Source of the DNA: Woeseia sp.
GTDB lineage: Bacteria; Pseudomonadota; Gammaproteobacteria; Steroidobacterales; Woeseiaceae
Reading direction: 5' to 3'
Assembly (NCBI GenBank): GCA_021773015.1
Contig: JAJFKW010000002.1
Span: forward strand, 124,001 to 188,000
DNA: 64,000 bases
The notes below the pieces were generated by a model that was not told where the DNA came from, searched no databases, and worked only from the letters and a program-made list of their open reading frames with translations. The translations under genes were made by a program, and so were the position numbers. Of the stretch, positions 1,968 to 59,331 are shown piece after piece. The first letter of the stretch is position 1, and every line of letters begins with the position of its first letter.

Positions 1968-2197
1968 CTTAGAAGTACATTTCAGAAGATGTCGCTCCGG
2001 CGCTCAAAGTGGCTATTGCTCTGTCAACGTGAACAAGCCGTCAATAAGAACCCCTAAGTTCGGCGAATGACCTGTCGGTTATCCGTTAGAAGTAGGAATC
2101 TCGCCGTAACGCTGAAGAGTGTGAATCAAATGGTGAAAATCGCGTACCATTAGCAGTGCCCCCGCTTGGGCATTTTTCAAAACATGGGAGTACATCA

Positions 2198-2740: not shown

Positions 2741-2876
2741 GTGTTCTGTATGAGAAATTGGAGTCAGACTGCACTTAATCGGCTAAACGTGGCAGTTGTT
2801 CGACTCCGGAATTCCGATTGATATTTACTGCTTCCTTTATTCGGGTCGAACCACAATTTGTTGGACGCTAATATTT

Positions 2877-2893
2877 CGGTCCGACCCTTTTTT
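2877..2893 (+). repeat. dispersed GGTCCGACCC-T-tract motif, copy 1
   Basis: CGGTCCGACCCTTTTTT lies between the end of yhcB and the end of the PD40 lipoprotein gene. Near-identical short copies recur in other intergenic gaps of this window. Confidence 0.6.
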
Positions 2894-2928
2894 CGTACGT
2901 TCAATTTCGTTCTTGTAGCTTCAGTGCA

Positions 2929-4833
2929 CTACTGCGACCACAGGAATATGTTGTTAACATCCCCGCCGGCAGTCAACGGGCCCGAGATATTGATGTTGCT
3001 CAGGCCATCCGCTGAGGCCATATAGAGCTCGGAGACGCCGACGGTATCCTGTCGTGACACGTAGATGACGGCAGAACTATCCGCCGACCACTGAGAAAAC
3101 GTATTCAGTCCTCCACCGGCGACGGCAGTACGGTTTACCTGGACACTGCTGCTGCCATCGGCCTGCGCAACAAACACCTCTATAACATCGTCTGTGAACT
3201 GATCGGCTGGGTAGGCGAATCGAGAACTGTCCGGTGACCACATATTGAATGGCAGGAAGCTGGAAAAGAACGCGGCGCCACCAGTGATCAACGGCCCGTT
3301 AACTTTCACGTTACCTGTGCCATCTGCCGCCGACACGAAGATCTCGGAAATTCCGGCAGTTTCCTGAATAGCGGAATAGGCGATCTGTGTGCTATCTGGA
3401 GACCACAAGAAAGATCCGGCGCTGCCGCCGGTGACCAGCGGGCCGTTTATTTTGGTGTTGTTGCCGCCATCGCCGTCGGACGCATATACCTCTGTAAAGA
3501 AATCGGTGTCCTGATCGGCTACATAAGCAATTCGTGAGGAATCCGGTGACCATGTAAAACTGAATACATTGCCGTCCGTGACCAGCGGTCCGTTAATCCT
3601 TGAGTTGTCGCTACCGTCCGGTAACACGGAATAAAGCTCAAAAATGCCGTCAAGGTCCTGATCCGCGCGATACGCCAGTCGTGAACCATCCGGTGCCCAG
3701 CTCATTTCCATCACACTGCCGTTATCAACCAGCGGACCACTGATTTTATTGTTGCCGCTACCGTCTGGCATCCCTACGTAAACTTCTCGTATGCCGGCAG
3801 TGTCCTGATCGGCGAGGTAGGCAATGAGCGAGGAGTCCGGAGACCAGATGTAGTCGTTTATCGAGCCCGGAGACGGTACCCGCGTTACGCTGACGCTGTT
3901 GGCGCTGCCGGTCGTTGTGTCATGTGTGTTGATACCGACTGCGCGGCCCGACGCCGAATCGATTACCCGTTGCGCTATGTAGCGGCCATCCGGCGACCAT
4001 TCGATCAGATCCAGACGTACGCTGCCGTTCGCCGTGTTGCCGTTGATCTTGCGGTGATTAGTGCCGTCACGATCGGCCAGATATACCTCCGTTACCCCGT
4101 CTATGTCGGCATCGGCCAAATAAACGATTGCCGAGCTGTCGGGCGACCAGCGAAACGTGAACACATCGCCTGTTATATTCGCCATAGCAGCGTTAATTTT
4201 AGATATGCCGCTGCCATCGATCGCGGCAACATAGAGCTCCCGGTTGATAACGTTGTCCGCATTCGCTCGGTACACAACGTAATTCCCATCCGGAGAAATT
4301 GCGAAATCGCCGGTCACGTCAGCCCCACTGGGTAACGCCCCGGAAAGTTTTGTGACCGTAGTGGACTGCGTGTCGTATTTGTAGAGTTCTTGTACGTTGT
4401 CGGTGTCCTTGTCCGCCAAGAATAATACGTAGTCAGCGGACGCCACGGTAACTGTGATGTCATCCGACGCGCTCCCACCCTGCCCATCACTGACGGTCAG
4501 CCGTAACACGGCGTCTTCTTCCATACCGACTGGAACTAGCGGCGCCGTGACGGTCGCATTCGGGTCGGTTGGCGAACTGAAGCTGACAGTTGGTCCGCTG
4601 ACCTGCGACCAGACATAGGTGAGCGTACCGCCGTCCGAATCGGAACCTTGTCCCGCCAGTTGCACGTCGATGTTTTCGTTAACGGACTGATCGGTGCCGG
4701 CATCCGCGGTCGGCGGGTTGTTGGCCGGTGCGGCGGGTCCGCCGCCGCCGCCGCCACAGGCTGTGAGCAGTCCAAATAGCAATAGGGCGGTGTAGAGTTT
4801 GTTGGGTAGTAGTCGCGAAATTCGCATGGGCAT
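2929..4833 (-). CDS. lipoprotein with Ig-like/PKD domain and PD40 (TolB-like) beta-propeller
   Basis: A 634-residue exported lipoprotein. The signal peptide ends in the lipobox LLTAC followed by a Gly run, so the mature protein should be lipid-anchored. Residues ~40-130 form a PKD/cadherin-like Ig module ('PTADAGTDQSVNENIDVQLA', 'VTAPLVPVGMEEDAVLRLTV'). The rest is about ten repeated units carrying the PD40 signature 'WSPDSS.IAY.AD.D', which builds a TolB-like propeller. The wording 'DQDTDGVTEVYVA..DGSG..KINGPLV' is repeated closely, showing internal duplication. ATG 4833 has GGAG nine bases upstream and starts directly at a good signal peptide; a start at 4911 would bury it. Such propellers bind proteins or glycans; no catalytic motif is visible. 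Confidence 0.88.
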   Translation of the reverse strand: MPMRISRLLPNKLYTALLLFGLLTACGGGGGGPAAPANNPPTADAGTDQSVNENIDVQLAGQGSDSDGGTLTYVWSQVSGPTVSFSSPTDPNATVTAPLVPVGMEEDAVLRLTVSDGQGGSASDDITVTVASADYVLFLADKDTDNVQELYKYDTQSTTVTKLSGALPSGADVTGDFAISPDGNYVVYRANADNVINRELYVAAIDGSGISKINAAMANITGDVFTFRWSPDSSAIVYLADADIDGVTEVYLADRDGTNHRKINGNTANGSVRLDLIEWSPDGRYIAQRVIDSASGRAVGINTHDTTTGSANSVSVTRVPSPGSINDYIWSPDSSLIAYLADQDTAGIREVYVGMPDGSGNNKISGPLVDNGSVMEMSWAPDGSRLAYRADQDLDGIFELYSVLPDGSDNSRINGPLVTDGNVFSFTWSPDSSRIAYVADQDTDFFTEVYASDGDGGNNTKINGPLVTGGSAGSFLWSPDSTQIAYSAIQETAGISEIFVSAADGTGNVKVNGPLITGGAAFFSSFLPFNMWSPDSSRFAYPADQFTDDVIEVFVAQADGSSSVQVNRTAVAGGGLNTFSQWSADSSAVIYVSRQDTVGVSELYMASADGLSNINISGPLTAGGDVNNIFLWSQ

Positions 4834-44412: not shown

Positions 44413-45711
44413 TCAGTCGAACTCCCCATTGCACGCATCACGAATAACAATGTCTCGGTTGAAATCGACATTGTCGCTATTCTTCGGGTCGCAATAGAAG
44501 TCGCCACTATTACCGTACGGTCCGTAAGTGCGATCGCCACATCTACCATAGGGTCCCCATCCGCGGCACTGCACTTCCTCGGTACATCCTATTAAGTCGC
44601 AGTCGTCTATTTGGGTATAACATTCCACTATGCGTTTGTTGACTTCCGCATGGCATTGGACGAGTTTCGCCTCCTCGGTATCGTTTGTAGCTTTTTGAGT
44701 CTCACCGCCTGATAACTGGAAGCTCAACCATGTTAGGTCATCTGCATCAAATAGGTAACGTGTCTGCGGCGTGATGGCGGAGTTGATGTTCCACAATGCG
44801 ATGCCGGAAGGTGCAGCACCCCGTTCCGCGGACACATGCGACCATTTGAGCGCTAATGGCACATTGCGAACTGCTGGATCGTCATATCCCATGTATAGGT
44901 GGGCCAAGATCGACTGGGCGTTGGTATCGCCTTGTTGCGCGGCGCGTTCGTACCAACCTATGGCCTTCTTTAAATCTATCGGAAATCCGTGGCCAAATCG
45001 ATAGCCTCTGCCTAGCGTTGATTGCGCGCCGGCGTGCCCATCTTCTGCCCACTGGCGAACGAGACTCCGCCGCAACTCCGATTTCAATGCGTCATTTCCA
45101 AACTCCTTTAACTTGCTCGTCGCATCAACTACAGCGGGCTGTGTTTCCATAGTCCCGTTCGCAACAATTGGGGACTGGCTTGCAAGGTTGCTCCTTTTGA
45201 CTGCCGAAGCTACTGTTTCGAGAGAGATCTCAAACACCAATGTCGATCCGGGTGGAACTTGTTCGCCGGACCCACGCTGTCCAAAGGCTAACTGCGGCGC
45301 CATTGTTAGCTCGCGAATTTCACCAACCTTCATGCCAACGATGCCGTTATCCCAACCAGGTAAGACGTGGCCCGCGCCGAGCGTAAATTCAAATTTCCGT
45401 CCTCGGTCAACAGAACTATCGATTTGGACTCCGCGACTATTTTTTGCGGAACCGTCATGCAGCCAGCCAGTATAGTGCACCGATATTTTGTCACCGACGT
45501 CTGCCACGGCGCCGGTTCCCTTTTGCAGAACGCGCATGGTTAATCCCGGTTCGATCTCGACATCCGTTTCTTCGGCGAGTGCAACAATCGGTATGGCGAG
45601 CGTGTCGCTAATACCGGCGTTAATATCCATCTTTCCTTCAGCGACGTCCTGACTGCAGGCGGCGATAAGCATCAAAAAAACCAGCAATATACCGAGACTA
45701 GTTGCTTTCAT
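44413..45711 (-). CDS. FKBP-type peptidyl-prolyl isomerase fused to Sel1 repeats, lipoprotein
   Basis: 432 residues. Signal peptide with lipobox LIAAC. An FKBP domain spans ~55-165: 'GLTMRVLQKGTGAVADVGDK', 'ISVHYTGWLHDGSAKNSRGV', 'DSSVDRGRKFEFTLGAGHVL', 'PGWDNGIVGMKVGEIRELTM' and 'GERG'-like 'AFGQRGSGEQVPPGSTLVFE', complete with the active-site aromatics. Residues ~220-320 hold two to three Sel1/TPR-like units ('AGAQSTLGRGYRFGHGFPID', 'GWYERAAQQGDTNAQSILAH'). A Cys-rich tail follows ('CYTQIDDCDLIGCTEEVQCR'). The enzyme should catalyse proline isomerisation during folding outside the cytoplasm; Sel1 units suggest protein binding. This combination is unusual. Confidence 0.88.
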   Translation of the reverse strand: MKATSLGILLVFLMLIAACSQDVAEGKMDINAGISDTLAIPIVALAEETDVEIEPGLTMRVLQKGTGAVADVGDKISVHYTGWLHDGSAKNSRGVQIDSSVDRGRKFEFTLGAGHVLPGWDNGIVGMKVGEIRELTMAPQLAFGQRGSGEQVPPGSTLVFEISLETVASAVKRSNLASQSPIVANGTMETQPAVVDATSKLKEFGNDALKSELRRSLVRQWAEDGHAGAQSTLGRGYRFGHGFPIDLKKAIGWYERAAQQGDTNAQSILAHLYMGYDDPAVRNVPLALKWSHVSAERGAAPSGIALWNINSAITPQTRYLFDADDLTWLSFQLSGGETQKATNDTEEAKLVQCHAEVNKRIVECYTQIDDCDLIGCTEEVQCRGWGPYGRCGDRTYGPYGNSGDFYCDPKNSDNVDFNRDIVIRDACNGEFD

Positions 45712-45951
45712 CGTTGTAATACACATTCGTGGATATCAATTTTCTATTTGGCGTGATTGTAGAGACAGTGACCATATCGAATAGATACGCTCGCTGTCCC
45801 GATAAAAAACTGTCGGAATGATTTACAAAACCTGTACAACGCCGGAGTCGTCTCCGGATAAAGCATTGATATAGTTTGCCTTTCAGGATTTGGTACGAAT
45901 ATTGCGTTAGATAAAGGGAGCCTGGATGAAGCTGGGCGAGATGCGGAGAGA

Positions 45952-47078: not shown

Positions 47079-47957
47079 CTAACCCCAGAGGTGGCGGTCT
47101 TTTTCAATTACTAGCGATGAACTGCCGACGATGAGCGGGTCTGGACCGTGCACTACGGCGGCGTCTTTGTCGGGATAATCCAAATGCGATAGAAAGTGTT
47201 GCATGCAATTCAAGCGAGCACGCTTTTTGTCGTCGGACTTGATGATAGCCCAAGGTGCATCGGCTGTGTCGGTATAGAAAAACATGGCTTCTTTGGCTTC
47301 GGTATATTCCTGCCACTTGTCCCGCGACTGCTGGTCGATAGGGCTCAATTTCCATTGTTTCAAGGGATCGCCGATTCGCGAATCGAAGCGCCGCATTTGC
47401 TCTTCCTGAGTTACCGAGAACCAGTATTTGAACAAGCGAATTCCCGATCGCACTAACATCCGTTCAAGGTCGGGAACTTGGCGCATAAATTCCAGATACT
47501 CCAGTGAATCGCAAAACCCCATCACTCGTTCGACGCCGGCCCGGTTGTACCAAGATCGATCAAAAAATACCATCTCGCCCTCAGATGGCAAATGTTTGAT
47601 GTACCGTTGAAAGTACCATTGTCCGCGCTCGTGATCGGTTGGCTTTTCTAGTGCAACCGTCCGTGCCGCACGCGGATTCAGATGTTCCATGAATCGTTTG
47701 ATTGTGCCGCCTTTCCCAGCCGCATCTCGCCCCTCGAAAATGACGACAATTCGTTCGCCAGTGAGCTTGACCCAGTTTTGGACCTTGAGTAGCTCGACCT
47801 GCAACTCCTCTTTGTGTTTTTCGTAAGCGCTACCGCGAATCTTATTGCGATACGGATATTTACCCTCACGAAATAAATCGCGAATCTTCTCTGGATTGCT
47901 GCGCATATCGCTGAAATTATGTGCCGTCAGATTCGGCACCGCTTTATCATCGCTCAT
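47079..47957 (-). CDS. ppk2: polyphosphate kinase 2
   Basis: 292 residues, class I PPK2 length. The Walker A motif 'EGRDAAGKGG' follows the 'KLTGERIVVIF' strand, and the Walker B/lid block is 'EMVFFDRSWYNRAGVERVMG'. 'WYFQRYIKHLPSEGE', 'GIRLFKYWFSVTQEEQMRRF' and 'WKLSPIDQQSRDKWQEYTEA' are also family-typical. PPK2 enzymes transfer phosphate between polyphosphate and nucleotides, favouring GDP or ADP phosphorylation. I chose ATG 47957 over an upstream TTG at 47996. It stands alone, but is close to the nucleotide locus starting at 48.5 kb. Confidence 0.95.
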   Translation of the reverse strand: MSDDKAVPNLTAHNFSDMRSNPEKIRDLFREGKYPYRNKIRGSAYEKHKEELQVELLKVQNWVKLTGERIVVIFEGRDAAGKGGTIKRFMEHLNPRAARTVALEKPTDHERGQWYFQRYIKHLPSEGEMVFFDRSWYNRAGVERVMGFCDSLEYLEFMRQVPDLERMLVRSGIRLFKYWFSVTQEEQMRRFDSRIGDPLKQWKLSPIDQQSRDKWQEYTEAKEAMFFYTDTADAPWAIIKSDDKKRARLNCMQHFLSHLDYPDKDAAVVHGPDPLIVGSSSLVIEKDRHLWG

Positions 47958-48572
47958 AGATTCTAGAGGCCTGGGATATTGACGAAACAAGTCCAAATTC
48001 TACGCAAATCGGCGGCGTTGAAAATACGCAAAAGTCCTTATGGCGCTGAACAGGCTGGTTGGATAACGAACGTGTCCCTGCTGTAATTGAATTCTAGAGT
48101 GTCGGTTGATAAAGCATCGGCTCGTATTGTTGCGGCGCGTTGTTGATCGCTCGACGGCAAGCAATCGTCGGATATATCAACGAGTTACTATGTGCATATT
48201 CGAGTCAAAGCGGATAGCTGGGATAACGACGATGCGCCACGAAACCACATACCCGACACCACTGTCCCGCGGAAAGTATCGAATGCTGTTTCGCTTGGTC
48301 GGAATATTTACCCGTATCATGCGGGCGCAGAAATTGACAACCAGCATTCGGTTGCACGAAAGGCCGAATTGTCGGAAATTGCAATGACCACCATCTCTGC
48401 CAGCGGCGGTGGTGATAAGCGATACTTGCGGACGTGCGCGGATACTTTCCAAATTATCATTATTCGCGGGGCTTGACCGGTATTTTCTACACACAATGTT
48501 CCGGCATGACTTCTCAAACTAGATTAAGATTCGAAGAGGTCGCGTACAGGCGACGAAGGGATGTTCGTGAAT
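47958..48572. other. 615-bp gap without a supported gene
   Basis: Divergent region between ppk2 and the AMP nucleosidase gene. Overlapping open frames at 48106-48494 on both strands have no start signals or family features. I found no TTAAACGTTT operator here. Confidence 0.45.
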
Positions 48573-49343
48573 ATGCTCAATAAAGAAGAAATAGTAAGGG
48601 ACTGGCTGCCGCGCTATACGGGCACCGAGCTTTCGGAGTTTGGGCGGTACATATTGTTGACCAACTTTTCCAGCTATATGCAGAAATTTGCGGACCGTTT
48701 CGGTTGTGAGATTCGCGGTGTCGATTTTCCAATGCAAACGGCAACTGCGAACGACATAACGATAATCAATTTCGGCATGGGCAGCCCTCTTGCGGCGACA
48801 GTGATGGACTTGCTTAGTGCAATCGAGCCGAAAGCCGTGCTTTTTCTTGGCAAATGCGGCGGCTTGAAAAAAAGGATTAAGGTTGGCGAGTTCATACTTC
48901 CCATCGCCGCTATTCGAGGAGAAGGAACGAGCGATGACTATTTGCCGAACGAAATACCGGCATTGCCCTCGTTCCGTTTGCAAATGGCGGTATCTCATAG
49001 CATCAAGAAATACGAACAGGACTATTGGACTGGTACGGTATTTACGACCAATCGCCGAGTCTGGGAGCACGATGAAAGCTTCCGGACATATCTTAAAAAG
49101 GCGCGGGCGGCGGCGATAGACATGGAAACAGCGACGTTATTTACCGTCGGCTTTACTAATCGAATACCTCATGGCGCGTTATTGCTGGTTTCGGATCTTC
49201 CGATGGTTCCCGAGGGCATAAAAACGGCGCGTGGCGATCAATCAGTGACAGCGAATTACGCTGGGCTCCATCTAGATATTGGCATAGATGCTATTGCCGA
49301 ACTGGTTGAATCGGGCGAGTCCGTCAAACACCTGCGTTTTTAA
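48573..49343 (+). CDS. amn: AMP nucleosidase, short (Bacteroidota-like) form
   Basis: 256 residues, nucleoside phosphorylase superfamily. The near-complete signature of short AMP nucleosidases is present: 'KEEIVRDWLPRYTGTELSEF', 'ITIINFGMGSPLAATVMDLL', 'AVLFLGKCGGLKKRIKVGEF', 'ILPIAAIRGEGTSDDYLPNE', 'TTNRRVWEHD' and 'AIDMETATLFTVGF'. It lacks the ~200-residue N-terminal regulatory domain of the E. coli enzyme. The reaction is AMP + H2O to adenine + ribose 5-phosphate. Family members start at the residue equal to ATG 48573; GTG 48567 and ATG 48561 are upstream alternatives near GAAGGG. It precedes the nucleoside hydrolase by 91 bases with a regulatory palindrome between. Confidence 0.9.
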   Translation: MLNKEEIVRDWLPRYTGTELSEFGRYILLTNFSSYMQKFADRFGCEIRGVDFPMQTATANDITIINFGMGSPLAATVMDLLSAIEPKAVLFLGKCGGLKKRIKVGEFILPIAAIRGEGTSDDYLPNEIPALPSFRLQMAVSHSIKKYEQDYWTGTVFTTNRRVWEHDESFRTYLKKARAAAIDMETATLFTVGFTNRIPHGALLLVSDLPMVPEGIKTARGDQSVTANYAGLHLDIGIDAIAELVESGESVKHLRF

Positions 49344-49406: not shown

Positions 49407-49423
49407 GATTAAACGTTTCACTT
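49407..49423. promoter_or_regulatory. LacI-type operator A (nucleoside regulon)
   Basis: GATTAAACGTTTCACTT, with core TTAAACGTTT, ends 11 bases before the nucleoside hydrolase ATG. The same 17 bases occur inverted at 52596-52612. Confidence 0.75.
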
Positions 49424-49434
49424 AAAGGCGCAGG

Positions 49435-50451
49435 ATGAAGCAGCTTTCTGTTTTGATTGACACCGATTTCCACCGCTATGCGGACGATCATGAGGCTCTG
49501 AGAATGCTCGCGGTCCTGCAGCACCGCGGGGATCTCGATATCACCGGCGTCACCACGGTCACCGGAAACGCCTGGGCAAGCGTTTGCGCTGAGCATGCTA
49601 GAGCTGCAGTGGTTACTTCTGGTTTGGACAGAGAGATCGTGTTTCAGGGTGCCGGCCAACCCTTATTGCATCGTCAAAACGACTTTGCTCATAGATCGCG
49701 GCTTTATGGTGCGGCATTTGGCGGGGCGTGGGGAAATGCAGAGCTTCTTGAAAGCAGCCCGGTCAGCCAGCCTCAGCCAGTCAATAGTAACGGCGCCCAC
49801 GCGGTGGACCATATCGTTAGGGTTCTTCGCGAAGCCGCTGAGCCACAATCGATACTGGCGATCGGTCCGATGACCAATCTTGCGCTGGCAATTCGGCTTG
49901 CACCGGATATCGTCAAAAATATTGGCCATCTTGTCGCGATGGGTGGCGCCTTTTACGTCAGGGGAAATGTTACGCCGTCGGCCGAGTTCAATTGGTGGTT
50001 TGATCCGGAAGCCGCGGCGATCGTGCTAGAGCAGGACATTGCGATGACAATTGTTCCGCTAGATGCAACAGACACAGTTGTATTGGATTATGAGCGTTTC
50101 GTCAGTTGGCAAAAAAGTTACGCAACACATCCGTTTTTTCAGGAATTTCACCAGCCGAAGTTTTCAAAGCTATTCGATTCAGACAAAGGTTTCTGCCTAC
50201 CCGTGTGGGATGCACTAGCGGCAGCCTGTCTCATTGATGAAAATTTGATTACGAAAAGAGATGAGTTATGGGTGACTGTGGACTGCTCTGAAGGTGCCAG
50301 TTACGGCCGCGTCGTTGCGTACGATGACGCGAATGCGTTTAATCTTGCAACGCCAACGAGACCCAAGGCCAACGTGGTTCTCGAGGCGGATGCTGATCGA
50401 TTCTGGAGTCTTTACGAAACACTGCTGTTTTCCGAAGCGGTGACAGATTGA
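49435..50451 (+). CDS. inosine-uridine-type nucleoside hydrolase
   Basis: 338 residues, cytoplasmic (no signal). The Ca2+-binding N-terminus reads 'VLIDTDFHRYADDHEALRML': D9, D11, D17 and D18 give the longer variant D-T-D-x5-D-D instead of the classical DxDPGxDD. 'ILAIGPMTNLALAIRLAPDI' and 'VAMGGAFYVRGNVTPSAEFN' are strongly typical, and 'LPVWDALAAACLID' supplies the late Asp. The family cleaves ribonucleosides to base plus ribose. AAAGG precedes the ATG by six bases. Operator A lies just upstream. Its TGA overlaps the nupC ATG (TGATG), so the genes are co-translated. Confidence 0.9.
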   Translation: MKQLSVLIDTDFHRYADDHEALRMLAVLQHRGDLDITGVTTVTGNAWASVCAEHARAAVVTSGLDREIVFQGAGQPLLHRQNDFAHRSRLYGAAFGGAWGNAELLESSPVSQPQPVNSNGAHAVDHIVRVLREAAEPQSILAIGPMTNLALAIRLAPDIVKNIGHLVAMGGAFYVRGNVTPSAEFNWWFDPEAAAIVLEQDIAMTIVPLDATDTVVLDYERFVSWQKSYATHPFFQEFHQPKFSKLFDSDKGFCLPVWDALAAACLIDENLITKRDELWVTVDCSEGASYGRVVAYDDANAFNLATPTRPKANVVLEADADRFWSLYETLLFSEAVTD

Positions 50452-51683
50452 TGCATATTGTTCAGGCTTCGCTTGGGCTTTTGGTATTGCTTGGCGTAGC
50501 GACGTTGCTGTCCCGGGATCGAAAACGTATTCCGTGGAAGTACATTGCGATTGCAATCACCGGTCAAGTGATTACAGCAGCGCTTTTTCTGCACGTTCCG
50601 GCGGCTCGGCAAGTTCTTGTCGTCGTAACGTTTCTCGCAAAGGCGCTTGAACGAGCGACACAGCAATCAACGCAGTTCGTTCTCGGCTACGTTGGCAGCG
50701 GACCATTACCATTCGAAGTTATCCCAGGATCATCGACATTTGTTTTCGCGTTCCAGGTACTGCCGGTCATCATGGTGATAGGCGCATTGTCAGCCTTGCT
50801 TTGGCATTGGCGGATATTTGGTCTGGTTGTATCTGTTGGCGCGTGGTTCGCGAAAAAGACGCTGGGTGTCAGCGGGCCTGTAGGTTTTGCTAGTGTTGCA
50901 AACGCATTTCTGGGCATGATCGAGGCGCCGCTGCTTATCAAACCTTATCTGGCGCGTATGGCGCCAAATGATCTGTTCATAGTTATGGCTGTCGGTATGT
51001 CGACGATAGCCGGTGGCACGGCCGTAATTATTAGCGGTATCGTGTCTGAGGATCCGGCGGCATTTGGCAATGTTATTACCGCAACATTAATGAACGTGCC
51101 CGGTGCAATTGCGTTTTCACTCATTCTGTTCCCGCCGCTTGCAAAAACGGGTGACGAGCAAGTTGACGTTAGCTTAACCAGTCCTTATCGAAGTTCAATG
51201 GATGCCTTGGTCACAGGAACCGCCGACGGTGTCAAGATTTTTGTAAACGTCGTATCGCTACTGATTGTTTTTATTGCTTTGGTCGCCTTGATCGACGGAT
51301 TATTGGATATGATCAACGACAACTTATCGCTAGCTACTATTTTTGGATACGTGCTCGCGCCAGTGACCTGGTTGCTGGGCATCGATTCAACGGAAGTTTT
51401 CAAGGCCGCCGAAATACTCGGCACCAAAATCGCGGTGAACGAGCTGGTTGCTTATACATACTTGGCCGAAAGTTACGGAACCCTCACGCCGCACACTCAT
51501 CTAGTCTTAACCTTTGCCTTATGTGGATTCGGTAATTTTGGAAGCCTTGCGATCATGATCGGTGGGGTAAGTGCGATGGCACCCGAGCGTCGGGAAGAGA
51601 TAATAAAGTTTGGACTATGGGCGTTACTCGCCGCTTTTCTGACGAACTGCGCGACTGCAGCAATTGCTTCTGTGGTCTGGTAA
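50451..51683 (+). CDS. nupC: CNT-family nucleoside permease (NupC-like)
   Basis: 410 residues with about eight to ten membrane segments. Family blocks: 'STFVFAFQVLPVIMVIGALS', 'SVANAFLGMIEAPLLIKPYL', 'MSTIAGGTAVIISGIVSEDP' and 'LTFALCGFGNFGSLAIMIGG'. Concentrative nucleoside transporters couple uptake to Na+ or H+. The 'IEAPLLIKPYL' and 'AGG.AVI.SG' loops form the nucleoside site in the family. It overlaps the nucleoside hydrolase gene by one base and is followed 24 bases later by the TrpF-like gene, so these three form one operon. Confidence 0.93.
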   Translation: MHIVQASLGLLVLLGVATLLSRDRKRIPWKYIAIAITGQVITAALFLHVPAARQVLVVVTFLAKALERATQQSTQFVLGYVGSGPLPFEVIPGSSTFVFAFQVLPVIMVIGALSALLWHWRIFGLVVSVGAWFAKKTLGVSGPVGFASVANAFLGMIEAPLLIKPYLARMAPNDLFIVMAVGMSTIAGGTAVIISGIVSEDPAAFGNVITATLMNVPGAIAFSLILFPPLAKTGDEQVDVSLTSPYRSSMDALVTGTADGVKIFVNVVSLLIVFIALVALIDGLLDMINDNLSLATIFGYVLAPVTWLLGIDSTEVFKAAEILGTKIAVNELVAYTYLAESYGTLTPHTHLVLTFALCGFGNFGSLAIMIGGVSAMAPERREEIIKFGLWALLAAFLTNCATAAIASVVW

Positions 51684-51707: not shown

Positions 51708-52370
51708 GTGGCAGCCAGAAACATTCCAGCGTATATCACTTTTACTGGCGCGGATGACGCGGCCTATTGCAAAGGAATGGCGGAGCTCAGCGCGCGATAT
51801 CCGATCGAATGGGGCATCTTGGTAGATCCCGATAAGAACGGTGTACCGCTCTTTCCGACTGCGCAGCACATCGATCGAATCAGGAAGCTAGGCGTTCGTC
51901 TGTGTGCACATATATGCGGCTCATTGGCTGCAAACATAGCAGGAGGCTGCAAGCCGACTGCCCACCTTGCAGGCTTTTCCCGCATACAGGTTAACCATGG
52001 GCGAGATGGTGCGGACACGGATACGGTTGCTGCGGTTTCTGAATTTGCGAGCACGCACGGCGTTCGTGGAGTTCTGCAATGTAGGGGTCCGAAATTTCCA
52101 GAGAACCAGACGCAAGTCGACTGGTTGTACGACGTGTCATTTGGCGAGGGTGTTCGACCCACGACATTCCCAGCGATCACCACAAGTCACCCATTTTGTG
52201 GAATCTCGGGCGGCATTGGGCCGCAAAATGTGTTGGAGACTCTGGATCAAGTCATTTCCGTCGATCCACAAGGTCTATTCTGGATCGATATGGAATCGGG
52301 CGTTCGCCGTGACGGCGTATTTGATCTAAGTTTGTGTGAAATGGTTTGCACGCAAGTTTACGGACGGTAA
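51708..52370 (+). CDS. TrpF-like (phosphoribosylanthranilate isomerase-like) TIM-barrel protein of unknown activity
   Basis: 220 residues. The C-terminal half matches the phosphate-binding end of TrpF: 'FCGISGGIGPQNVLETLDQV' (cf. 'aGGl.peNv') and 'LFWIDMESGVRRDGVFD' (cf. 'D.sSGvE..G.kD'). The N-terminal strand reads 'AYITFTGADDAAYCKGMAEL', so the usual catalytic Cys of TrpF ('K.CG') is not at its place. A TIM barrel binding a phosphoribosyl-like ligand is therefore likely, but a role in tryptophan synthesis is not. GTG start 51708 with GGAACGG upstream. It is the last gene of the nucleoside hydrolase-nupC operon, so a nucleoside-derived sugar substrate is my inference. Confidence 0.72.
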   Translation: MAARNIPAYITFTGADDAAYCKGMAELSARYPIEWGILVDPDKNGVPLFPTAQHIDRIRKLGVRLCAHICGSLAANIAGGCKPTAHLAGFSRIQVNHGRDGADTDTVAAVSEFASTHGVRGVLQCRGPKFPENQTQVDWLYDVSFGEGVRPTTFPAITTSHPFCGISGGIGPQNVLETLDQVISVDPQGLFWIDMESGVRRDGVFDLSLCEMVCTQVYGR

Positions 52371-52638: not shown

Positions 52639-55026
52639 ATGACACTCCGCACGTGGTCCAAAGCAGTTTTCGTCCTTATTCCTTTTTTGTCGGCAGGTAC
52701 GGTACTGGCACAGGAAGATGAGGAACTTGAAGAAATCGTTGTACTCGGATTAGCCGAGCGGTATGGCAGTGGTCTTAGCCGCGCTGAATTTGTGCTTGGT
52801 CGAGAGGACATAGAACTGCGTCCGGCGGGCGCGGAGATCACGCAGGCGCTTGCGAAAATTCCAGGTGTGCAAGTGTCAACAGGCGATTCGCGAGGCGGTA
52901 GCTTTTCGCTTGAGTTGTATATGCGAGGCTTGAACGATCAGCAAATTGGCCTGTCAGTAGACGGCATTCCGGCAGGTGACGCTCGTTTCAACGGTGGCTC
53001 GCCGCCCAATAGATATGTAGAGACGTCGAACGTTGGCCGCATTGCTGTTTCACAAAGCTCCGGCGAAATCGGGGCGCCATCGCGTTCTGCACTTGGTGGA
53101 TTTATCGATTTTGAAACTCTTGACCCAACGTCAGATTTCGGCGTGGATTTTGGATTTGGCTCAGGCAATTTCGACTATCGTCGGATGTTTCTAAAAGTGA
53201 ATACGGGAGAATTAGCCGATGGGCTGACCAGCTACTGGAGTTTTTCCGATCAATCGAACGATATTTACACTGGGCCAAACAATCGAGACAAGAGTCGCCA
53301 GCATTTCGACGGCAAGATTCTTAAATCATTTGCTTCCGGCTCGGAGTTAGCCTTTCGAGTGAGCTATAACGAACTAGACGACAACGATTTTGGTATCGTT
53401 TCTCTCGGGGACGTCAATAACGACCCTACCAGCGATACCGTGAATGATGTGTTTGCGGGCGATCCTGATGTCGATGCGGGCTTCACCGGTTTTGGTGGTG
53501 CGCTCGGTGGTACGCGAGAAGATGTACTTGTATACCTAAATGTCGATCTCGTTCTCAGCAATTCGGTTAACTTGACAATCAATCCGTACATTCACGATTT
53601 AGAAGGCGAGTCGTTTGCTTACCAAAGCGATTCAACAACGACAGTAACGGGTGACCCCAGAGACCAAAACACTGTCGAAGAGGACTTCGATGCGTCCGGC
53701 GTTCGCGTTGCGGACATGCGCATAACCCCGCGAAATCGCGAACGTAGTGGCGTAACTGCAGAAATTACGTTCGACAATGTGGCCGGATTTAACGACATAC
53801 GCGCCGGACTGTGGGTAGAAAGCGATGACACAAACGAAGACCGTAATTTTTTTCGGGTAAATGACGTGAGAACGGGCATTGAATATGCGCAGAGCGCACT
53901 TGGATACATTGAATACGAGCGCGATCTTACGACGGATACTTTGTACTACTACATCCAGGACAAGATTTCATTGCTTGAAGATCGTCTGGTATTCGATGTT
54001 GGCGCTACTTTCCACGACGTTGAATATCAGTGGACTTCGCCCATTGAATTTTCCGGATCGAACAGATTGAAAGTCGAAACAGATGACCTTGATCTTAAAT
54101 TGGGAGGCGTTTTCAGATTCACAGAGAACTTCGAGTTATTTGCCGGGTATTCGGAAAATTTTGGCGGTATTTTTGAAGATGCGTTTCTAGGTTCCAGTAA
54201 TGCGATCAACACCAATACGCTGTTACCAGAAACCTCCGAGAATCTTGATATCGGTCTGCGCTATGTCGTCGATAACTTCGCTATTTCGGCGCAGTGGTAC
54301 CAAATCGATTTTGAAAACCGTCTGACGACAGCGCCAACGTCATTCGTACCATGCGATCCGGTAACGCCAGCACCCGGTTGTGTAGACGTTGCCGACGTCA
54401 TCAACGGCAATGCATCGACCGAAGTTGTTAACCAAGGTGGGATAGATAGTGAGGGTTTCGAGATTACTGCGTCGGCATTGTTGGGCGACTTCAGTTTGTA
54501 TGCAACGTATGCGAATCAGGAAGCGGAGTTCAAGACGTCTGATCCATCAATTGGCATTTTCACTGAAACGAGTGTTCAGGATATTCCTGACGACAGTTTT
54601 TTTGCTGAAGTCCAATGGTCACCGAACGATAACTTTCGAGCATCGTTAAACGCGAAGTACGTGAGCGATCGGGTAGGCGGTTATCTGTTCGTGCCCGGGT
54701 TTTGTAACCCTTTCTTTTGTTTCGACGAAACAGGTGCTGGTGTTGACGGCGGGGATTTTCTTGGATCGCAGGAAATTGACGGCTACTGGTTGTGGAATCT
54801 TGCCGCCATCTACGACTTACCGGACGTTTCTGGACTGAAGAACGTTCGATTCCAGCTAAATGTCGATAACGTGTTTGATGAGACATTTATTAGCTCCGTA
54901 ACTGGCGCCACTTCGTCTTTGCCAGAGTTTGGTGTCATTGGTGGCTTAACGGCCGAGTCTGCTCTCGATCGTTATTTCATCGGATTTCCAAGAACGGTAA
55001 CAATGAGTGTGAGCGCTTCTTTCTAG
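52639..55026 (+). CDS. TonB-dependent outer-membrane receptor, likely for nucleosides
   Basis: 795 residues. Signal peptide 'VFVLIPFLSAGTVLAQ', then a TonB-box-like 'EEIVVLG' (~31-37), a plug domain (~55-155: 'ITQALAKIPGVQVSTGDSRG', 'MRGLNDQQIGLSVDGIPAGD') and a 22-strand-type barrel ending in Phe. Barrel blocks 'FRFTENFELFAGYSENFGG' and 'LWNLAAIYDL..V...FQLNVDNVFDE' (split) are standard. Receptors of this kind import substrates that do not pass porins. GGGGAG lies upstream, and operators B and C precede the gene. Placement with nucleoside permease and hydrolase genes suggests nucleoside or nucleotide uptake; the ligand is inference. Confidence 0.93.
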   Translation: MTLRTWSKAVFVLIPFLSAGTVLAQEDEELEEIVVLGLAERYGSGLSRAEFVLGREDIELRPAGAEITQALAKIPGVQVSTGDSRGGSFSLELYMRGLNDQQIGLSVDGIPAGDARFNGGSPPNRYVETSNVGRIAVSQSSGEIGAPSRSALGGFIDFETLDPTSDFGVDFGFGSGNFDYRRMFLKVNTGELADGLTSYWSFSDQSNDIYTGPNNRDKSRQHFDGKILKSFASGSELAFRVSYNELDDNDFGIVSLGDVNNDPTSDTVNDVFAGDPDVDAGFTGFGGALGGTREDVLVYLNVDLVLSNSVNLTINPYIHDLEGESFAYQSDSTTTVTGDPRDQNTVEEDFDASGVRVADMRITPRNRERSGVTAEITFDNVAGFNDIRAGLWVESDDTNEDRNFFRVNDVRTGIEYAQSALGYIEYERDLTTDTLYYYIQDKISLLEDRLVFDVGATFHDVEYQWTSPIEFSGSNRLKVETDDLDLKLGGVFRFTENFELFAGYSENFGGIFEDAFLGSSNAINTNTLLPETSENLDIGLRYVVDNFAISAQWYQIDFENRLTTAPTSFVPCDPVTPAPGCVDVADVINGNASTEVVNQGGIDSEGFEITASALLGDFSLYATYANQEAEFKTSDPSIGIFTETSVQDIPDDSFFAEVQWSPNDNFRASLNAKYVSDRVGGYLFVPGFCNPFFCFDETGAGVDGGDFLGSQEIDGYWLWNLAAIYDLPDVSGLKNVRFQLNVDNVFDETFISSVTGATSSLPEFGVIGGLTAESALDRYFIGFPRTVTMSVSASF

Positions 55027-55090: not shown

Positions 55091-55987
55091 TTACCGAATC
55101 GAATCGGTAACGAGTTGCCACTGGGCTCCAATACGCGCGAGTGTGTCCGCCGCGAGCTCGGCGCCGATTTCGGCAGATTCGACAATGCCCTGCCCACCGA
55201 TCAACCCCGAAGCGAGGCCCGCGCGAAAAGAATCTCCACAACCAGTGGGATCAATAATTTCTACCGGTTTTGCTGCGCTTACGGCATGTTCAGCGCCGTT
55301 CGTGTATATACGCGACCCATTTTCGCCCTTCGTGACAATGAGTGCTTCGAGTTTTGTAGCGATAGAGGATGCTGATGCATTCAAGAGTCGCTCGACCATC
55401 GATAATTCAAAGTCGTTGACGATTAGCCAATGCGAAGAGGCTAGAGCAGTGGATAGGTCATTCGCTGTCAATGACGTTAGACACTGTCCAGGGTCAAGCA
55501 TCGTGGGAATTCCGAAGCGTGCGAAATCTGCAACACGACCCATGAATGCATCGCGATCGTCAGGCCCGACAATAGCTAGATCTGCAGATAGGTTATCGTC
55601 TAGACGGATGTCTTTCGAAAAAGACATGGCGCCGGGATACATGGCGAGAACTTGATTTTCGGCAGCGTCCGTTAGAATGTAAACGTGAGCAGTGACGTCA
55701 TTCTCAATTGTCGCGATAAGCGATCTATCAACACCGTTCAAATCCAACCACGCTGCATAAGGCGCGAAGTCGATGCCAACCGCAGCGATCGGCGCAGCGT
55801 GTAAACCGAGTTTTGTAAGGTGAAAGGCCATGTTTGCTGCGCAACCACCGTAAGTGTTATGTCGTGAACGGCAGTGGTAACCGACGCTGATGCTTCGGTC
55901 GTCCGTTCTCATCGTTTCGCGAATGTCATCGTCTACGAAAAGTAGGGTATCGAATGAGATGGAGCCGGATATGAGGATGCTTGCCAT
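55091..55987 (-). CDS. PfkB-family kinase, adenosine-kinase-like
   Basis: 298 residues. PfkB signatures: 'YGGCAANMAFHLTKLGLHAA' (substrate loop, GGCAAN at 47-52) and 'IIDPTGCGDSFRAGL' with the catalytic Asp at 252 in the anion hole GxGD. The overall wording ('GSISFDTLLF', 'VGIDFAPYAAWLDLNGVD', 'YPGAMSFSKDI', 'MLDPGQCL', 'LIVNDFELSMVERLL') matches the proteobacterial group annotated as adenosine kinase better than RbsK. Adenosine + ATP to AMP + ADP would feed the AMP nucleosidase. A ribokinase role after nucleoside hydrolase remains possible. AAGGTC precedes the ATG; operator D is 50 bases upstream, shared with the divergent LacI gene. Confidence 0.88.
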   Translation of the reverse strand: MASILISGSISFDTLLFVDDDIRETMRTDDRSISVGYHCRSRHNTYGGCAANMAFHLTKLGLHAAPIAAVGIDFAPYAAWLDLNGVDRSLIATIENDVTAHVYILTDAAENQVLAMYPGAMSFSKDIRLDDNLSADLAIVGPDDRDAFMGRVADFARFGIPTMLDPGQCLTSLTANDLSTALASSHWLIVNDFELSMVERLLNASASSIATKLEALIVTKGENGSRIYTNGAEHAVSAAKPVEIIDPTGCGDSFRAGLASGLIGGQGIVESAEIGAELAADTLARIGAQWQLVTDSIR

Positions 55988-56050: not shown

Positions 56051-56143
56051 ACATTGTACCTCGGATATTATCGATAGGAAATTCGTATTCAGCTTAAAAT
56101 TTCAGTAGGGTAGCGGCTTGAATTGTCGTCAGGAAAACAGCAT

Positions 56144-57148
56144 ATGGCTGGGCTGCACCGAAGAAAATCGCGGGTAACGTTGCACGATGTCGCGCACGAT
56201 GCGGGTGTATCGATTGCGACAGTCTCATATGTTCTGAACAAGCGCGGTTCTGTATCTGAGGAGGTCAGAAAAAAGGTTCGGCGCTCCGCGAAAAACTTAG
56301 GCTACCAACAAAATCGTGCCGCACGGGCCATGAAGATGGGTCGATCGAGTATCATTGGTTTGGTCATTCCGAATATCGAAAATCCATTCTTCGCAACACT
56401 GGCGCAGTCGGTCCTTTTGGAAAGCCAACGGCGCAATTACCAGGTCTTTCTCGTCGACACCGAGGGTTCACACGAGAGTGAAGAAAAGGCCATGCAAGGA
56501 TTGGTCGCCCAGGGCGTAGACGGGATAATTGTTTTTCCGATTGACGATAGCGCGCTTAAGTCGGCTAAGAGCGACCAACTGCCGGTGGTGGTTCTGGATC
56601 GCGATACACCGAACCTGGATCTCGTGCAGGCAGAGTATTATGCGGGGGGCCGCAAGCTTGCAGAGCATTTGCAAGCACTCGGGCACAAACGTTTCGGAAT
56701 GTTGGAGGGCCCGCAAGTCGTTACCAGCGCTCGCGATCGTTCGCGAGGTTTTTTGGATGGCCTATCCAAAACATCGAAAATTGTTTGGCAGCAAGAACAC
56801 CCGTTTTCGATGGAGCTTTCGAAATCCGCCGAGGCGCTGCTGAAAAAAAACAACGTGTCGGCCATTTTCTGTGGCAACGATTTAATCGCATTGGCCGCAA
56901 TCGCATACCTAAAGAACAACGACATTCGCGTTCCGCAAGATGTCTCGGTGACCGGGTTCGACGATATTCAGTTTGCAAGAATGATGTCTCCAACACTCAC
57001 GACAGTGCATATGCCGGTGGCTAAGATGGGTGTCGAAGCGGTCAACGTACTCATTCGTCGTCTTGAGGAAACAGAGGCAGAGCGGACCAGAAGCAGAATC
57101 GTTCTAGATGTCGAGTTGATTGTTAGGGAATCGACCGCGCCGATCTAG
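56144..57148 (+). CDS. LacI-family regulator of the nucleoside locus
   Basis: 334 residues. The DNA-binding head, 'RVTLHDVAHDAGVSIATVSY', 'VLNKRGSVSEEVRKKVRRSA', includes the hinge helix 'NRAARAMKM', and 'GLVIPNIENPFFATLAQSVL' opens the sugar-binding-protein-like effector domain ('GVDGIIVFPID', 'GFDDIQFARMMSPTLTTVHM'). ATG 56144 has AGGA nine bases upstream; TTG 56123 is an alternative. Its gene lies at the centre of the operator set with core TTAAACGTTTAA, which fits LacI-type sites with a central CG, so it is the probable repressor. The effector is likely a nucleoside or ribose derivative (inference). Confidence 0.9.
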   Translation: MAGLHRRKSRVTLHDVAHDAGVSIATVSYVLNKRGSVSEEVRKKVRRSAKNLGYQQNRAARAMKMGRSSIIGLVIPNIENPFFATLAQSVLLESQRRNYQVFLVDTEGSHESEEKAMQGLVAQGVDGIIVFPIDDSALKSAKSDQLPVVVLDRDTPNLDLVQAEYYAGGRKLAEHLQALGHKRFGMLEGPQVVTSARDRSRGFLDGLSKTSKIVWQQEHPFSMELSKSAEALLKKNNVSAIFCGNDLIALAAIAYLKNNDIRVPQDVSVTGFDDIQFARMMSPTLTTVHMPVAKMGVEAVNVLIRRLEETEAERTRSRIVLDVELIVRESTAPI

Positions 57149-57216: not shown

Positions 57217-58317
57217 ATGTTCAGTCGCAGGCAACTGGTCACCTCTATTCTCGGCACACTCGCTACCCGTACGGTGGCGGCTAGCGTTGATCCGTTCCTG
57301 TCTTCTGCGGGTGACGACATTTTTCGAATCGCATTCGGCTCTTGCGTTAGCCAAAGGCGTTCGCAGCCTGTTTGGGCTTCCATCACCGCGAAAAAGCCGG
57401 ATGTATTTCTGATGATGGGCGACGGCGTTTACCCAGAGCACGAAGGTGAGGATCTGCCGGTGCTCGAGTCGCTTGAAAGAGCTTACAAACACGCGCGTAC
57501 CCGTTCTGAACTTCGGAAATTCCGAGATATCGTCAAGACTATCGCGATTTGGGACGACAACGATTACGGTGGCAGCGATATAGGCGCATCATTCGAGCAC
57601 CGCTGTCGCTCGCGCGAGTTATTTCTGGAGTTTTGGGCAGATCCAAAAGAGGCAAAGATAAGACGCCGGGACAGCGGGATTTACGGTCTGTGGGAGTTTG
57701 GAGAGGCAGGCCGGCGCACCCAGGTGATCGTTCCAGATCTTCGTTTTTGCCGGTCGGAATGGGCACAGACGGAACATAGTGTTCGCGCGGCGCTTGGGGA
57801 CAATGGTTTTGGCCCATACAAACCGACGCTGGATTCCGGTGCGACAATGTTGGGCGATGCTCAGTGGCGCTGGCTAGAGGCGTGTCTCAGACGTCCGGCG
57901 GAACTCCGTGTCTTTCTGTCTTCGATTCAATTCGTGCCTGAAGGTCGCGGATGGGAGTCCTGGTCAAATTTTCCACTTGAAAAACAACGACTCCTAAATT
58001 CACTGCGTGAGTACGATGTAGACGGATTTTTTATTCTCAGTGGTGACACCCACTATGCGGAGATTTCTTTACGGGAGAACAGTGGAGTCGGCTACCCGCT
58101 TTGGGAGGCTACCTCCAGCGGCTTAACGGAGTCTTGGCCAACTCCGGGACCGAATCCAAATCGTGTTGGGGACGCTTACCCTCGTACAAATTTCGGCATG
58201 CTGACCGTCAATTGGCTTAGCGATGAACCAATACTGGTCGCAGAGATATTTGCGGAAGATGGAGCGAGGCTGCGCCAGCAGGCGGTGCTGCTCTCATCCC
58301 TAAGATCGACTAACTAA
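57217..58317 (+). CDS. phoD: PhoD-type alkaline phosphatase/phosphodiesterase
   Basis: 366 residues. A twin-arginine signal is suggested by 'FSRRQLVTSILGTLA'. Metallophosphatase motifs of the PhoD family are visible: 'FGSCVSQRR', 'MMGDGVYPEHE', 'AIWDDNDYGGSD', 'VPDLRFCRSE' and 'ILSGDTHYAEIS'. PhoD enzymes act on phosphodiesters and monoesters outside the cytoplasm with Ca2+ and Fe3+. In this locus it could release nucleosides from extracellular nucleotides before import (inference). It starts 68 bases after the LacI gene, with a degenerate operator before it. Confidence 0.88.
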   Translation: MFSRRQLVTSILGTLATRTVAASVDPFLSSAGDDIFRIAFGSCVSQRRSQPVWASITAKKPDVFLMMGDGVYPEHEGEDLPVLESLERAYKHARTRSELRKFRDIVKTIAIWDDNDYGGSDIGASFEHRCRSRELFLEFWADPKEAKIRRRDSGIYGLWEFGEAGRRTQVIVPDLRFCRSEWAQTEHSVRAALGDNGFGPYKPTLDSGATMLGDAQWRWLEACLRRPAELRVFLSSIQFVPEGRGWESWSNFPLEKQRLLNSLREYDVDGFFILSGDTHYAEISLRENSGVGYPLWEATSSGLTESWPTPGPNPNRVGDAYPRTNFGMLTVNWLSDEPILVAEIFAEDGARLRQQAVLLSSLRSTN

Positions 58318-59331
58318 TTCTTTTTCGATCTGTTCGATATCGGCTATATGAGATGCTGTCGACGCGTCCGGCAAGAATGAACCGGTAAAGGAGTTCTTCG
58401 CTAATACGACAATATCTTTGTCACTTAGGTTTAGCGCGGTGGCAGCGTGTAAATAGTTTTCATTCACATAGCCACCAAAGTATGCCGGGTCGTCCGAATT
58501 CACTGTTGCGACGATTCCTGAATCGAGCATCTTTCGAAGCGGATGATCTCTGAGATCCGAAACGACACCGAGTTGCAAGTTCGAAAGCGGGCAGACGGTC
58601 AGCGGAATTTTCCTTTCGACAATGCGGTTCACCAAGAGACTGTCTTCCATCGCTCGATTGCCATGATCAATTCGATCAACTTTAAGCTGGTCGATCGCCT
58701 GCCAAATGTATTCCGGTGGACCTTCTTCTCCGGCATGGGCGACTGTTTTCAATCCGGCCGCTCTCGCTTGGTCGTATACTTCAACAAAGAGACTCGGCGG
58801 GCAGCCCTGTTCGCTTGAATCTAAACCGACACCGTGGATGTCCTCTAAGAACGGTTCCATAGCGACGAATGTCTGCACAGCGTCGATCGCTGGCAGATGC
58901 CGTAAAAAACATGGAATCAGGTAAACGGACATGCCTTTGTCGTTTGCCGCAGCAATGGCTTTTTTGAAGCCAGAGAATATTGCGCGAAGCGGAATGCCCC
59001 GGCTTGTGTGTGCCTGCGGATCGAAGAACGCCTCAACGTGCCGAACATTATCTTGCAATGCTTTTTGAAAATATGCCGCAGCCAAATCAAAAAAATCTTC
59101 CTCGGTCTGCAGCACATTCATTCCGATGTAGTAAATATCCAAGAATTCTTGAAGATTCGAAAACACGTAGGCCTTCCGAAGTTGCTCCACCGAGTCGTAT
59201 TCAAGCGAAAACTTGTTACGGGTCGCCAGTTCAAATAGCAATTCAGGCTCCAGCGAGCCCTCGAGATGAATATGGAGTTCAGCTTTTGGCAGTTTTTCTA
59301 TCAGCTCTGATGTGGACATTGTTGGCTTCAT
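58300..59331 (-). CDS. adenine deaminase of the adenosine deaminase superfamily
   Basis: 343 residues, cytoplasmic. Zinc and catalytic residues are present: H20 and H22 ('ELHIHLEGS'), H199 and E202 ('VAHAGEEGPPEYIW'), H223 ('RIDHGNRA'), D280-D281 ('TVNSDDPAYFGGY'). The segment 'GVGLDSSEQG' (168-176) replaces the 'GxDLaGdE' of true adenosine deaminases and is the mark of the subgroup shown in Pseudomonas to deaminate adenine to hypoxanthine. That suits a locus with AMP nucleosidase, which makes adenine. A perfect operator palindrome ends nine bases before the ATG. It overlaps the phoD-like gene's 3' end by 18 bases, converging with it. Confidence 0.88.
   Translation of the reverse strand: MKPTMSTSELIEKLPKAELHIHLEGSLEPELLFELATRNKFSLEYDSVEQLRKAYVFSNLQEFLDIYYIGMNVLQTEEDFFDLAAAYFQKALQDNVRHVEAFFDPQAHTSRGIPLRAIFSGFKKAIAAANDKGMSVYLIPCFLRHLPAIDAVQTFVAMEPFLEDIHGVGLDSSEQGCPPSLFVEVYDQARAAGLKTVAHAGEEGPPEYIWQAIDQLKVDRIDHGNRAMEDSLLVNRIVERKIPLTVCPLSNLQLGVVSDLRDHPLRKMLDSGIVATVNSDDPAYFGGYVNENYLHAATALNLSDKDIVVLAKNSFTGSFLPDASTASHIADIEQIEKELVSRS

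Follow-up and report, generated by a model that had tools for sequence, protein, structure and literature searches.

A protein encoded in a nucleoside operon of a Woeseia sp. genome, here named TRPFL, is very probably a genuine and co-regulated part of nucleoside catabolism and not the phosphoribosylanthranilate isomerase (TrpF) that it resembles. With somewhat less assurance, though still on the side of the probable, we regard TRPFL as a member of a TrpF-derived barrel family that has an invariant active site of its own, in which a Cys/His pair on beta-3 takes the place of the beta-1 Cys, and that carries out on a ribosyl compound a reaction performed by no described TrpF, HisA or PriA; phages and plasmids would often carry this family, one branch of which would be a co-regulated purine-nucleoside step in alpha-, beta- and gammaproteobacteria. 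Neither the fold nor the superfamily, that of TrpF, is new, while the family is without a name of its own in four libraries (Pfam, NCBIfam, PHROGs and PADLOC), and a literature search restricted to open-licence papers found no description of it.

The features around TRPFL in the window, by which we mean the whole analysed stretch of 64,000 nucleotides, are collected in Table 1. The earlier note had read nucleoside hydrolase, nupC and TRPFL as one operon, and the spacing agrees with it: the first two genes overlap by 4 bp and TRPFL, whose start codon is GTG, begins 24 bp past the nupC stop, from which co-transcription of the three genes may be inferred. A candidate operator sits between AMP nucleosidase and the hydrolase, and because of this AMP nucleosidase may belong to a separate transcript. 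The PfkB kinase is nearer to 3b1r and 3b1n, which were deposited as 'Ribokinase, putative', and to adenosine kinases than to the listed ribokinases. Upstream of the locus, reading of the translations suggests an FKBP-type isomerase with Sel1-like repeats (44413-45726) and a polyphosphate kinase 2-like protein (47079-47996).

Table 1. Genes and candidate operators of the TRPFL locus, in window positions.
Feature	Position	Strand	Evidence or remark
AMP nucleosidase, upstream	48561..49343	+	NF005500, 410.2 bits (cut-off 264)
LacI-type operator TTAAACGTTTCA	49409..49420		ends 14 bp before the nucleoside hydrolase-nupC-TRPFL operon
Nucleoside hydrolase, first gene of the operon	49435..50451	+	PF01156
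NupC-type nucleoside transporter	50448..51683	+	Pfam (PF01773/PF07670/PF07662)
TRPFL, TrpF-derived (beta-alpha)8 protein, 220 aa	51708..52370	+	Pfam, profile-profile comparison, model, fold search
Operator TGAAACGTTTAA	52599..52610		before the TonB receptor
TonB-dependent outer-membrane receptor	52639..55026	+	
PfkB kinase	55091..55987	-	nearest solved sequences 3b1r/3b1n and adenosine kinases
Operator TTATACGTTTAA	56036..56047		between pfkB and lacI
LacI-family regulator	56123..57148	+	
Operator-like TTAAACCTTTAA	57192..57203		between lacI and phoD
PhoD-like phosphatase	57217..58317	+	Pfam
Adenosine deaminase	58300..59331	-	NF006850, 495.5 bits (cut-off 419)
Operator TTAAACGTTTAA	59341..59352		before adenosine deaminase

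The sites in Table 1 are concentrated at this locus. With at most one mismatch, TTAAACGTTTAA is found at 7 sites in the 4.84-Mb genome assembly (the reversed-pattern control gives 31), 5 of them within this 10-kb stretch and the other two inside ORFs. Judged from its sequence, the locus is a local LacI regulon with candidate operators before its transcription units, and it is such a putative LacI-type operator that ties TRPFL to the locus.

The motifs named in the earlier note are found in the translation of TRPFL, with ITFTG at residues 10-14, SGGIGPQNV at 167-175 and DMESGVRRDG at 194-203. Against PF00697 (PRAI, TrpF) the protein reaches 21.8 bits, a near miss of the cut-off of 22.7, and the match covers residues 158-212 only; the NCBIfam TrpF profile gives 13.6 bits against a cut-off of 181, and the TrpF of the trp operon in the same genome also stays below its NCBIfam cut-off (best score 151.5, cut-off 216), so that these NCBIfam scores decide nothing here. 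The resemblance to TrpF is not a matter of chance, because 82 of 108 family members match PF00697 at E<=0.01 and the Pfam scan of all 108 reported no other family. The best of these matches has an E of 6.5e-8, and some may pass the cut-off; NCBIfam returned TrpF matches only for the 108 members (best E 9.7e-6), and some members may perhaps have been annotated as TrpF. A profile-profile comparison of the TRPFL family with 13 TrpF sequences gives a probability of 97% and an E of 1.1e-10.

An AlphaFold2 model of TRPFL, built from an alignment of 108 sequences, has a mean pLDDT of 93.8 and a pTM of 0.91, and contains eight strands (residues 9-13, 33-39, 64-69, 92-95, 120-125, 138-141, 164-167 and 191-195). 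In a Foldseek search of the PDB the top matches are those of Thermotoga maritima TrpF (1dl3, E 1.2e-5), and in VIA-align 2 the first eight rows are TrpF or TrpF-containing entries, among them T. maritima TrpF 1nsj with Z 18.1 and an rmsd of 2.8 over 187 aligned residues. PdxJ has Z 15.7 in the same ranking, equal to that of the archaeal TrpF 4aaj (15.7) and above two further archaeal TrpF. A viral structure library gave no close match to the model, a result which proves nothing. The TrpF-like TIM barrel of the earlier note is thus borne out by the prediction, in which TRPFL is a (beta-alpha)8 barrel with TrpF as its nearest fold.

The catalytic residues tell a different story from the fold. 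In the profile alignment with 13 TrpF sequences T13 stands at the catalytic Cys, whose absence had been pointed out before, and Thr occupies this position in 36 of the 36 clade fragments covering it (the clade is described below); T11 stands at the beta-1 Lys, N96 at the beta-4 His, and in the window protein L48 stands at the Arg of the SPR motif, the residue by which TrpF contacts the anthranilate carboxylate. What is kept in comparison with TrpF is Q94 on beta-4, the beta-6 Asp (D142), the GG after beta-7 (168-169), which is invariant in 108 sequences and aligned with the AGG of TrpF, where this loop binds phosphate, and D194 on beta-8. Sixteen columns are invariant among the 108 members (G14, E34, L38, H68, C70, R92, Q94, N96, D142, G146, G148, G165, G168, G169, W192 and R200), and the protein has a conserved interior of its own, composed of E34, H68, C70, R92, Q94, N96, Q124, D142, W192, D194, E196 and R200. 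Both C70 and H68 are present in all 36 clade fragments covering these sites and in all 138 of those outside the clade. Compared with TrpF (PF00697; T. maritima 1nsj/1lbm), then, TRPFL shares the barrel, the beta-6 and beta-8 Asp, the beta-7 GG loop and the beta-4 Gln, but on beta-1 both Cys and Lys are replaced by Thr and the beta-4 His by Asn, the beta-8 motif contains Glu and Arg, H68 and C70 on beta-3 and E34 on beta-2 are additional, and the gene lies in a nucleoside context rather than a trp one. Read through the TrpF alignment, TRPFL would have the beta-6 Asp in common with HisA and PriA and a Thr at the position of their catalytic beta-1 Asp; Amadori chemistry on ribosyl amines is conceivable for it.

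The genome has a separate TrpF (L001, 1480-2073), which scores 99.6 bits in PF00697 and lies between genes matching trpB, trpC and trpD. Aligned with six TrpF sequences this protein is diverged, with KICG and SPR kept, the beta-6 LLD stretch gapped or replaced and HGDE lost, and for this reason we speak of it as a TrpF in a trp operon and not as a normal TrpF. In an IQ-TREE analysis of 84 proteins a branch supported at 100/100 separates the TrpF rows from the rest, and in a quick tree of 131 proteins the split between TrpF and the TRPFL family has an SH-aLRT of 100. Clustering with true TrpF, which the earlier note had allowed for, is not seen: TRPFL falls outside the TrpF rows in both trees with full support. 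With its PF00697 score below the cut-off, its catalytic Cys lost, its place outside TrpF in the trees and a TrpF located elsewhere in a trp operon, TRPFL does not look like a working TrpF.

The same trees place the window protein in a clade, which contains 27 proteins in the IQ-TREE analysis (UFBoot 100, SH-aLRT 99) and has a support of 99 in the quick tree. The 37 loci that we assign to the clade consist of these 27 tree rows and ten further loci assigned by closeness (seven near-duplicates and three fragments); nine of the ten cover position 145 and have the F145 of the clade, and L007, which ends earlier, has D40, L48 and H97. That a clade tied to nucleoside genes would exist had been predicted, and it does: a nucleoside or nucleobase gene lies within 6.5 kb in 36 of 37 clade loci and in 0 of 139 other loci of the family, figures to be read with the reservation that the clade loci themselves supplied some of the probes and that related members and loci are not independent trials. 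The genes counted were those of nucleoside hydrolase, nupC, adenosine deaminase, xanthine/uracil permease, PnrA-like binding protein and AMP nucleosidase; when the window's own probes alone were used, no nucleoside hydrolase, nupC or adenosine deaminase was found outside the clade. The association persists although gene order differs widely in the clade, and another genus of the same family has a homologue with 68% identity in the order nucleoside hydrolase-nupC-TRPFL. Random insertion of a phage gene beside nupC was rejected on account of the linkage in 36/37 loci and in that other genus.

The activity most often common to the clade loci is N-ribosyl cleavage, where the hydrolase family changes and TRPFL stays. 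An N-ribosyl hydrolase, whether nucleoside hydrolase, AMP nucleosidase or ADP-ribosylglycohydrolase, was found in 33 of the 37 loci, and in each of the four others the contig leaves under 3.3 kb of flank on one side or both; in 20 loci nucleoside hydrolase is no more than 150 bp from TRPFL. A PfkB kinase, ribokinase-like in L026, is detected by probe in 19/37 loci, a count which, judging from clustering, is probably too low; some of the loci without a match have short flanks. TonB receptors, a phytase-like esterase, xanthine/uracil permease and a PnrA-like ABC system are further partners. Four rhizobial loci (L041, L046, L050 and L051) combine TRPFL and an ABC transporter with an ADP-ribosylglycohydrolase, which replaces nucleoside hydrolase or stands beside it and which may cleave nucleosides, a guess made from its company with the PnrA-like ABC system.

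A single clade locus leans towards tryptophan. L033, a 6.3-kb contig with a LacI gene, is the exception among the 37 loci in having no nucleoside gene, and directly upstream of its clade member lies a gene (1734-3104) for a TrpB-like PLP enzyme, with 29% identity and 728.7 bits in NF009057 (cut-off 366). As regards linkage to trp genes in relatives, the other possibility raised in the earlier note, a BLASTP search of the locus ORFs with the TrpB, TrpF, TrpC and TrpD of the own genome (E<=1e-3) gave this TrpB-like match as its single hit, with no match to TrpC, TrpD or TrpF in the 37 clade loci. It is here that a diverged but working second TrpF, perhaps a backup of the trp-operon copy, has to be weighed. 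The fold, the beta-7 and beta-8 motifs, the divergence of the trp-operon TrpF itself and the neighbour in L033 speak for such a role, but the replaced beta-1 Cys and Lys, the replaced SPR Arg of the window protein, the separation of the clade from TrpF in the trees, 37 loci with one TrpB match and none to TrpC, TrpD or TrpF, and the nucleoside context in 36/37 make it highly improbable.

The regulation found in the window has a counterpart in the clade. In the 14 clade loci with a noted LacI homologue there are 29 sites (central CG, at most 2 mismatches) in 184 kb, and 22 of them are the perfect palindrome TGAAACGTTTCA; the same type of site occurs 5 times in 258 kb of the remaining clade loci and 17 times in 1.50 Mb of the non-clade loci L053-L179. 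It lies 52-53 bp before the TRPFL start in four Caulobacter-type loci, and no site of the central-CG type was found in the LacI-bearing loci L033 and L047. By probe, LacI is found near the clade member in 15/37 loci and GntR in 18/37. These dedicated regulators count against taking TRPFL for a non-catalytic ligand-binding protein, such as a sensor of purine or ribose compounds, and so do the lack of another Pfam domain in the 108 members and the sixteen positions invariant across phage and bacterial members, which are typical of an active site; what would fit a binding protein, a reading that we think improbable, is that the beta-1 Cys and Lys of TrpF have been lost. The TGAAACGTTTCA motif alone does not name the regulator, because the same word also appears, as far as the sources consulted go, in other literature, including that on E. 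coli Cra. According to the main text of PMC4052901, AdeR, HpxR and UriR are local LacI-family regulators of nucleoside regulons, and the present locus is like theirs in having a local LacI regulator over a nucleoside utilisation locus; it differs in that TRPFL is part of the regulon, whereas the terms 'TrpF' and 'nucleoside hydrolase' do not occur in that main text.

Counted by fragments covering each site, several residues set the clade apart. F145 is found in 36/36 clade fragments and in 0/138 others, which have Gly (104), Ser (16), Ala (6), Lys (4), Cys (4), His (3) or Arg (1). Position 48 is Arg in 138/138 non-clade fragments, while in the clade it is Leu in 31, Arg in 4 and Pro in 1. S167 is found in 34 of 36 clade fragments, and H97 in all 36 as well as in 26 non-clade ones. 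Because R48 is mostly lost and F145 runs throughout the clade, the ligand of the clade has probably become a less charged one, which fits nucleosides or free ribose over nucleotides.

Outside the clade the family leads to mobile elements. TRPFL homologues are rare in genomes generally, with hits in 3 of 369 genomes from the class and in 2 of 149 relatives (the own genome counted in each), and they are found in 4 phage records, 14 plasmid records, 88 loci of GTDB genomes (best 80 of 88 used) and 214 loci of IMG/VR (best 80 of 214 used). The 139 non-clade loci comprise 80 from IMG/VR, 3 from phages, 9 from plasmids and 47 from genomes, a mix that mirrors the collections searched and is no measure of the mobile share of the family. 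Some of the genome loci look like prophages (L054/L131, L055/L106 and L074/L169), in view of the identical or near-identical proteins found on IMG/VR contigs. Many of L069-L099 form a Bacteroidota/Bacillota branch, mostly of rumen and gut MAGs, which is mixed with IMG/VR contigs in the tree and is possibly phage-borne. A role as a defence gene was rejected, none of the 108 members matching PADLOC or, for that matter, PHROGs.

The neighbours on phages and plasmids are mixed. We scanned 146 of 283 non-redundant non-clade neighbours, among which the commonest Pfam family is DUF5131 (4), followed with 2 each by DNA cytosine methylase, DUF1643, DUF4326, RNA ligase, cytidylyltransferase-like and radical SAM; there are nucleoside deoxyribosyltransferase-like proteins among the neighbours as well. 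Such a neighbourhood points loosely to nucleic-acid or nucleotide chemistry and fixes no reaction. Non-clade TRPFL is often followed immediately by a gene of an unnamed family of about 235 aa (18 loci, e.g. L065 7644-8351); a reading of this family as ASCH-like found no backing in Pfam, where its representative is without a match. One member on an Azonexus plasmid (L013, 5986-7593) is 535 aa in total and carries a long C-terminal extension without a Pfam match; the idea of a fusion to a nucleoside deoxyribosyltransferase-like domain was withdrawn, the Pfam scan having given no match.

As the best explanation of these results we tentatively favour a TrpF-derived enzyme of purine-nucleoside catabolism which takes a sugar-side step after N-ribosyl cleavage. 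TRPFL would act on the ribosyl product released by the hydrolase, either ribose or the ribose 5-phosphate that arises after PfkB kinase or AMP nucleosidase, and the reaction would be an interconversion of ring-open aldose and ketose, or of sugar ring forms. D142 would have the same task as the TrpF Asp, the opening of the furanose ring, and the base that TrpF supplies from beta-1 would come from C70 together with H68; these two alternate at the end of beta-3 and should point into the barrel. RpiA and RpiB, of which RpiB uses a Cys base, are families different from TRPFL and serve as a working analogy only, for the aldose-ketose isomerisation of a pentose. The clade would have been recruited from a family often carried by phages and plasmids; there the enzyme would probably act on a phosphorylated nucleotide-derived sugar. 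The ligand proposed in the earlier note, a ribosyl or ribose-phosphate compound outside tryptophan synthesis, is supported by the context and the kept beta-7 GG loop, and is not proven. A class I aldolase of the DeoC-like kind was set aside, no Lys being among the invariant columns.

Several observations weigh against a sugar-side step. RpiA is present in the genome (RpiB was searched for there and not found), so that a plain ribose-5-phosphate isomerase would be redundant, and a missing isomerase as the reason for the gene is not supported. In our judgement the interior holds more charged residues than one would expect a simple pentose isomerase to require. In 18/37 loci the probes found no PfkB, and the nearness of the window PfkB to adenosine kinases and 3b1r/3b1n makes a sugar route in this genome less evident. 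L033 has a TrpB-like neighbour and no nucleoside gene, PdxJ equals or exceeds some archaeal TrpF in Z, and the mixed phage neighbours single out no pentose step.

A different reaction, which we consider possible but rather unlikely, would have the N-ribosyl compound itself as its substrate, be it a nucleoside, a nucleotide or a ribosylamine, and would proceed by opening of the ring and Amadori rearrangement or hydrolysis; the substrates might be damaged or ring-opened purine nucleosides which the standard hydrolase cannot cleave, and in phage members the reaction would take place on nucleotides. According to PMC9088769 and PMC7591586, N-ribosyl amines are rearranged by both TrpF and HisA, and the former describes aspartate and cysteine as the acid-base pair of TrpF, D126 as among the key catalytic residues of the T. 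maritima enzyme and ring opening as likely the slowest catalysed chemical step. The ring-opening Asp is retained in TRPFL, the linkage of the clade is to N-glycosidases, R48 is present in 138/138 non-clade fragments, and some non-clade relatives lie beside DNA methylases, nucleoside deoxyribosyltransferase-like proteins and RNA-repair genes; against this, the beta-1 base is gone.

In the customary scheme nucleoside catabolism runs from transport through N-glycosidic cleavage to a kinase, and the extra conserved, co-regulated protein found here suggests a missing step. Phages, prophages and plasmids carry the same fold family with the same interior residues, so that an assignment of the chromosomal enzyme would provide a testable function for an unnamed phage gene. 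The family offers, besides, a natural example of a well-studied barrel in which the catalytic Cys has gone and a rebuilt active site has been kept.
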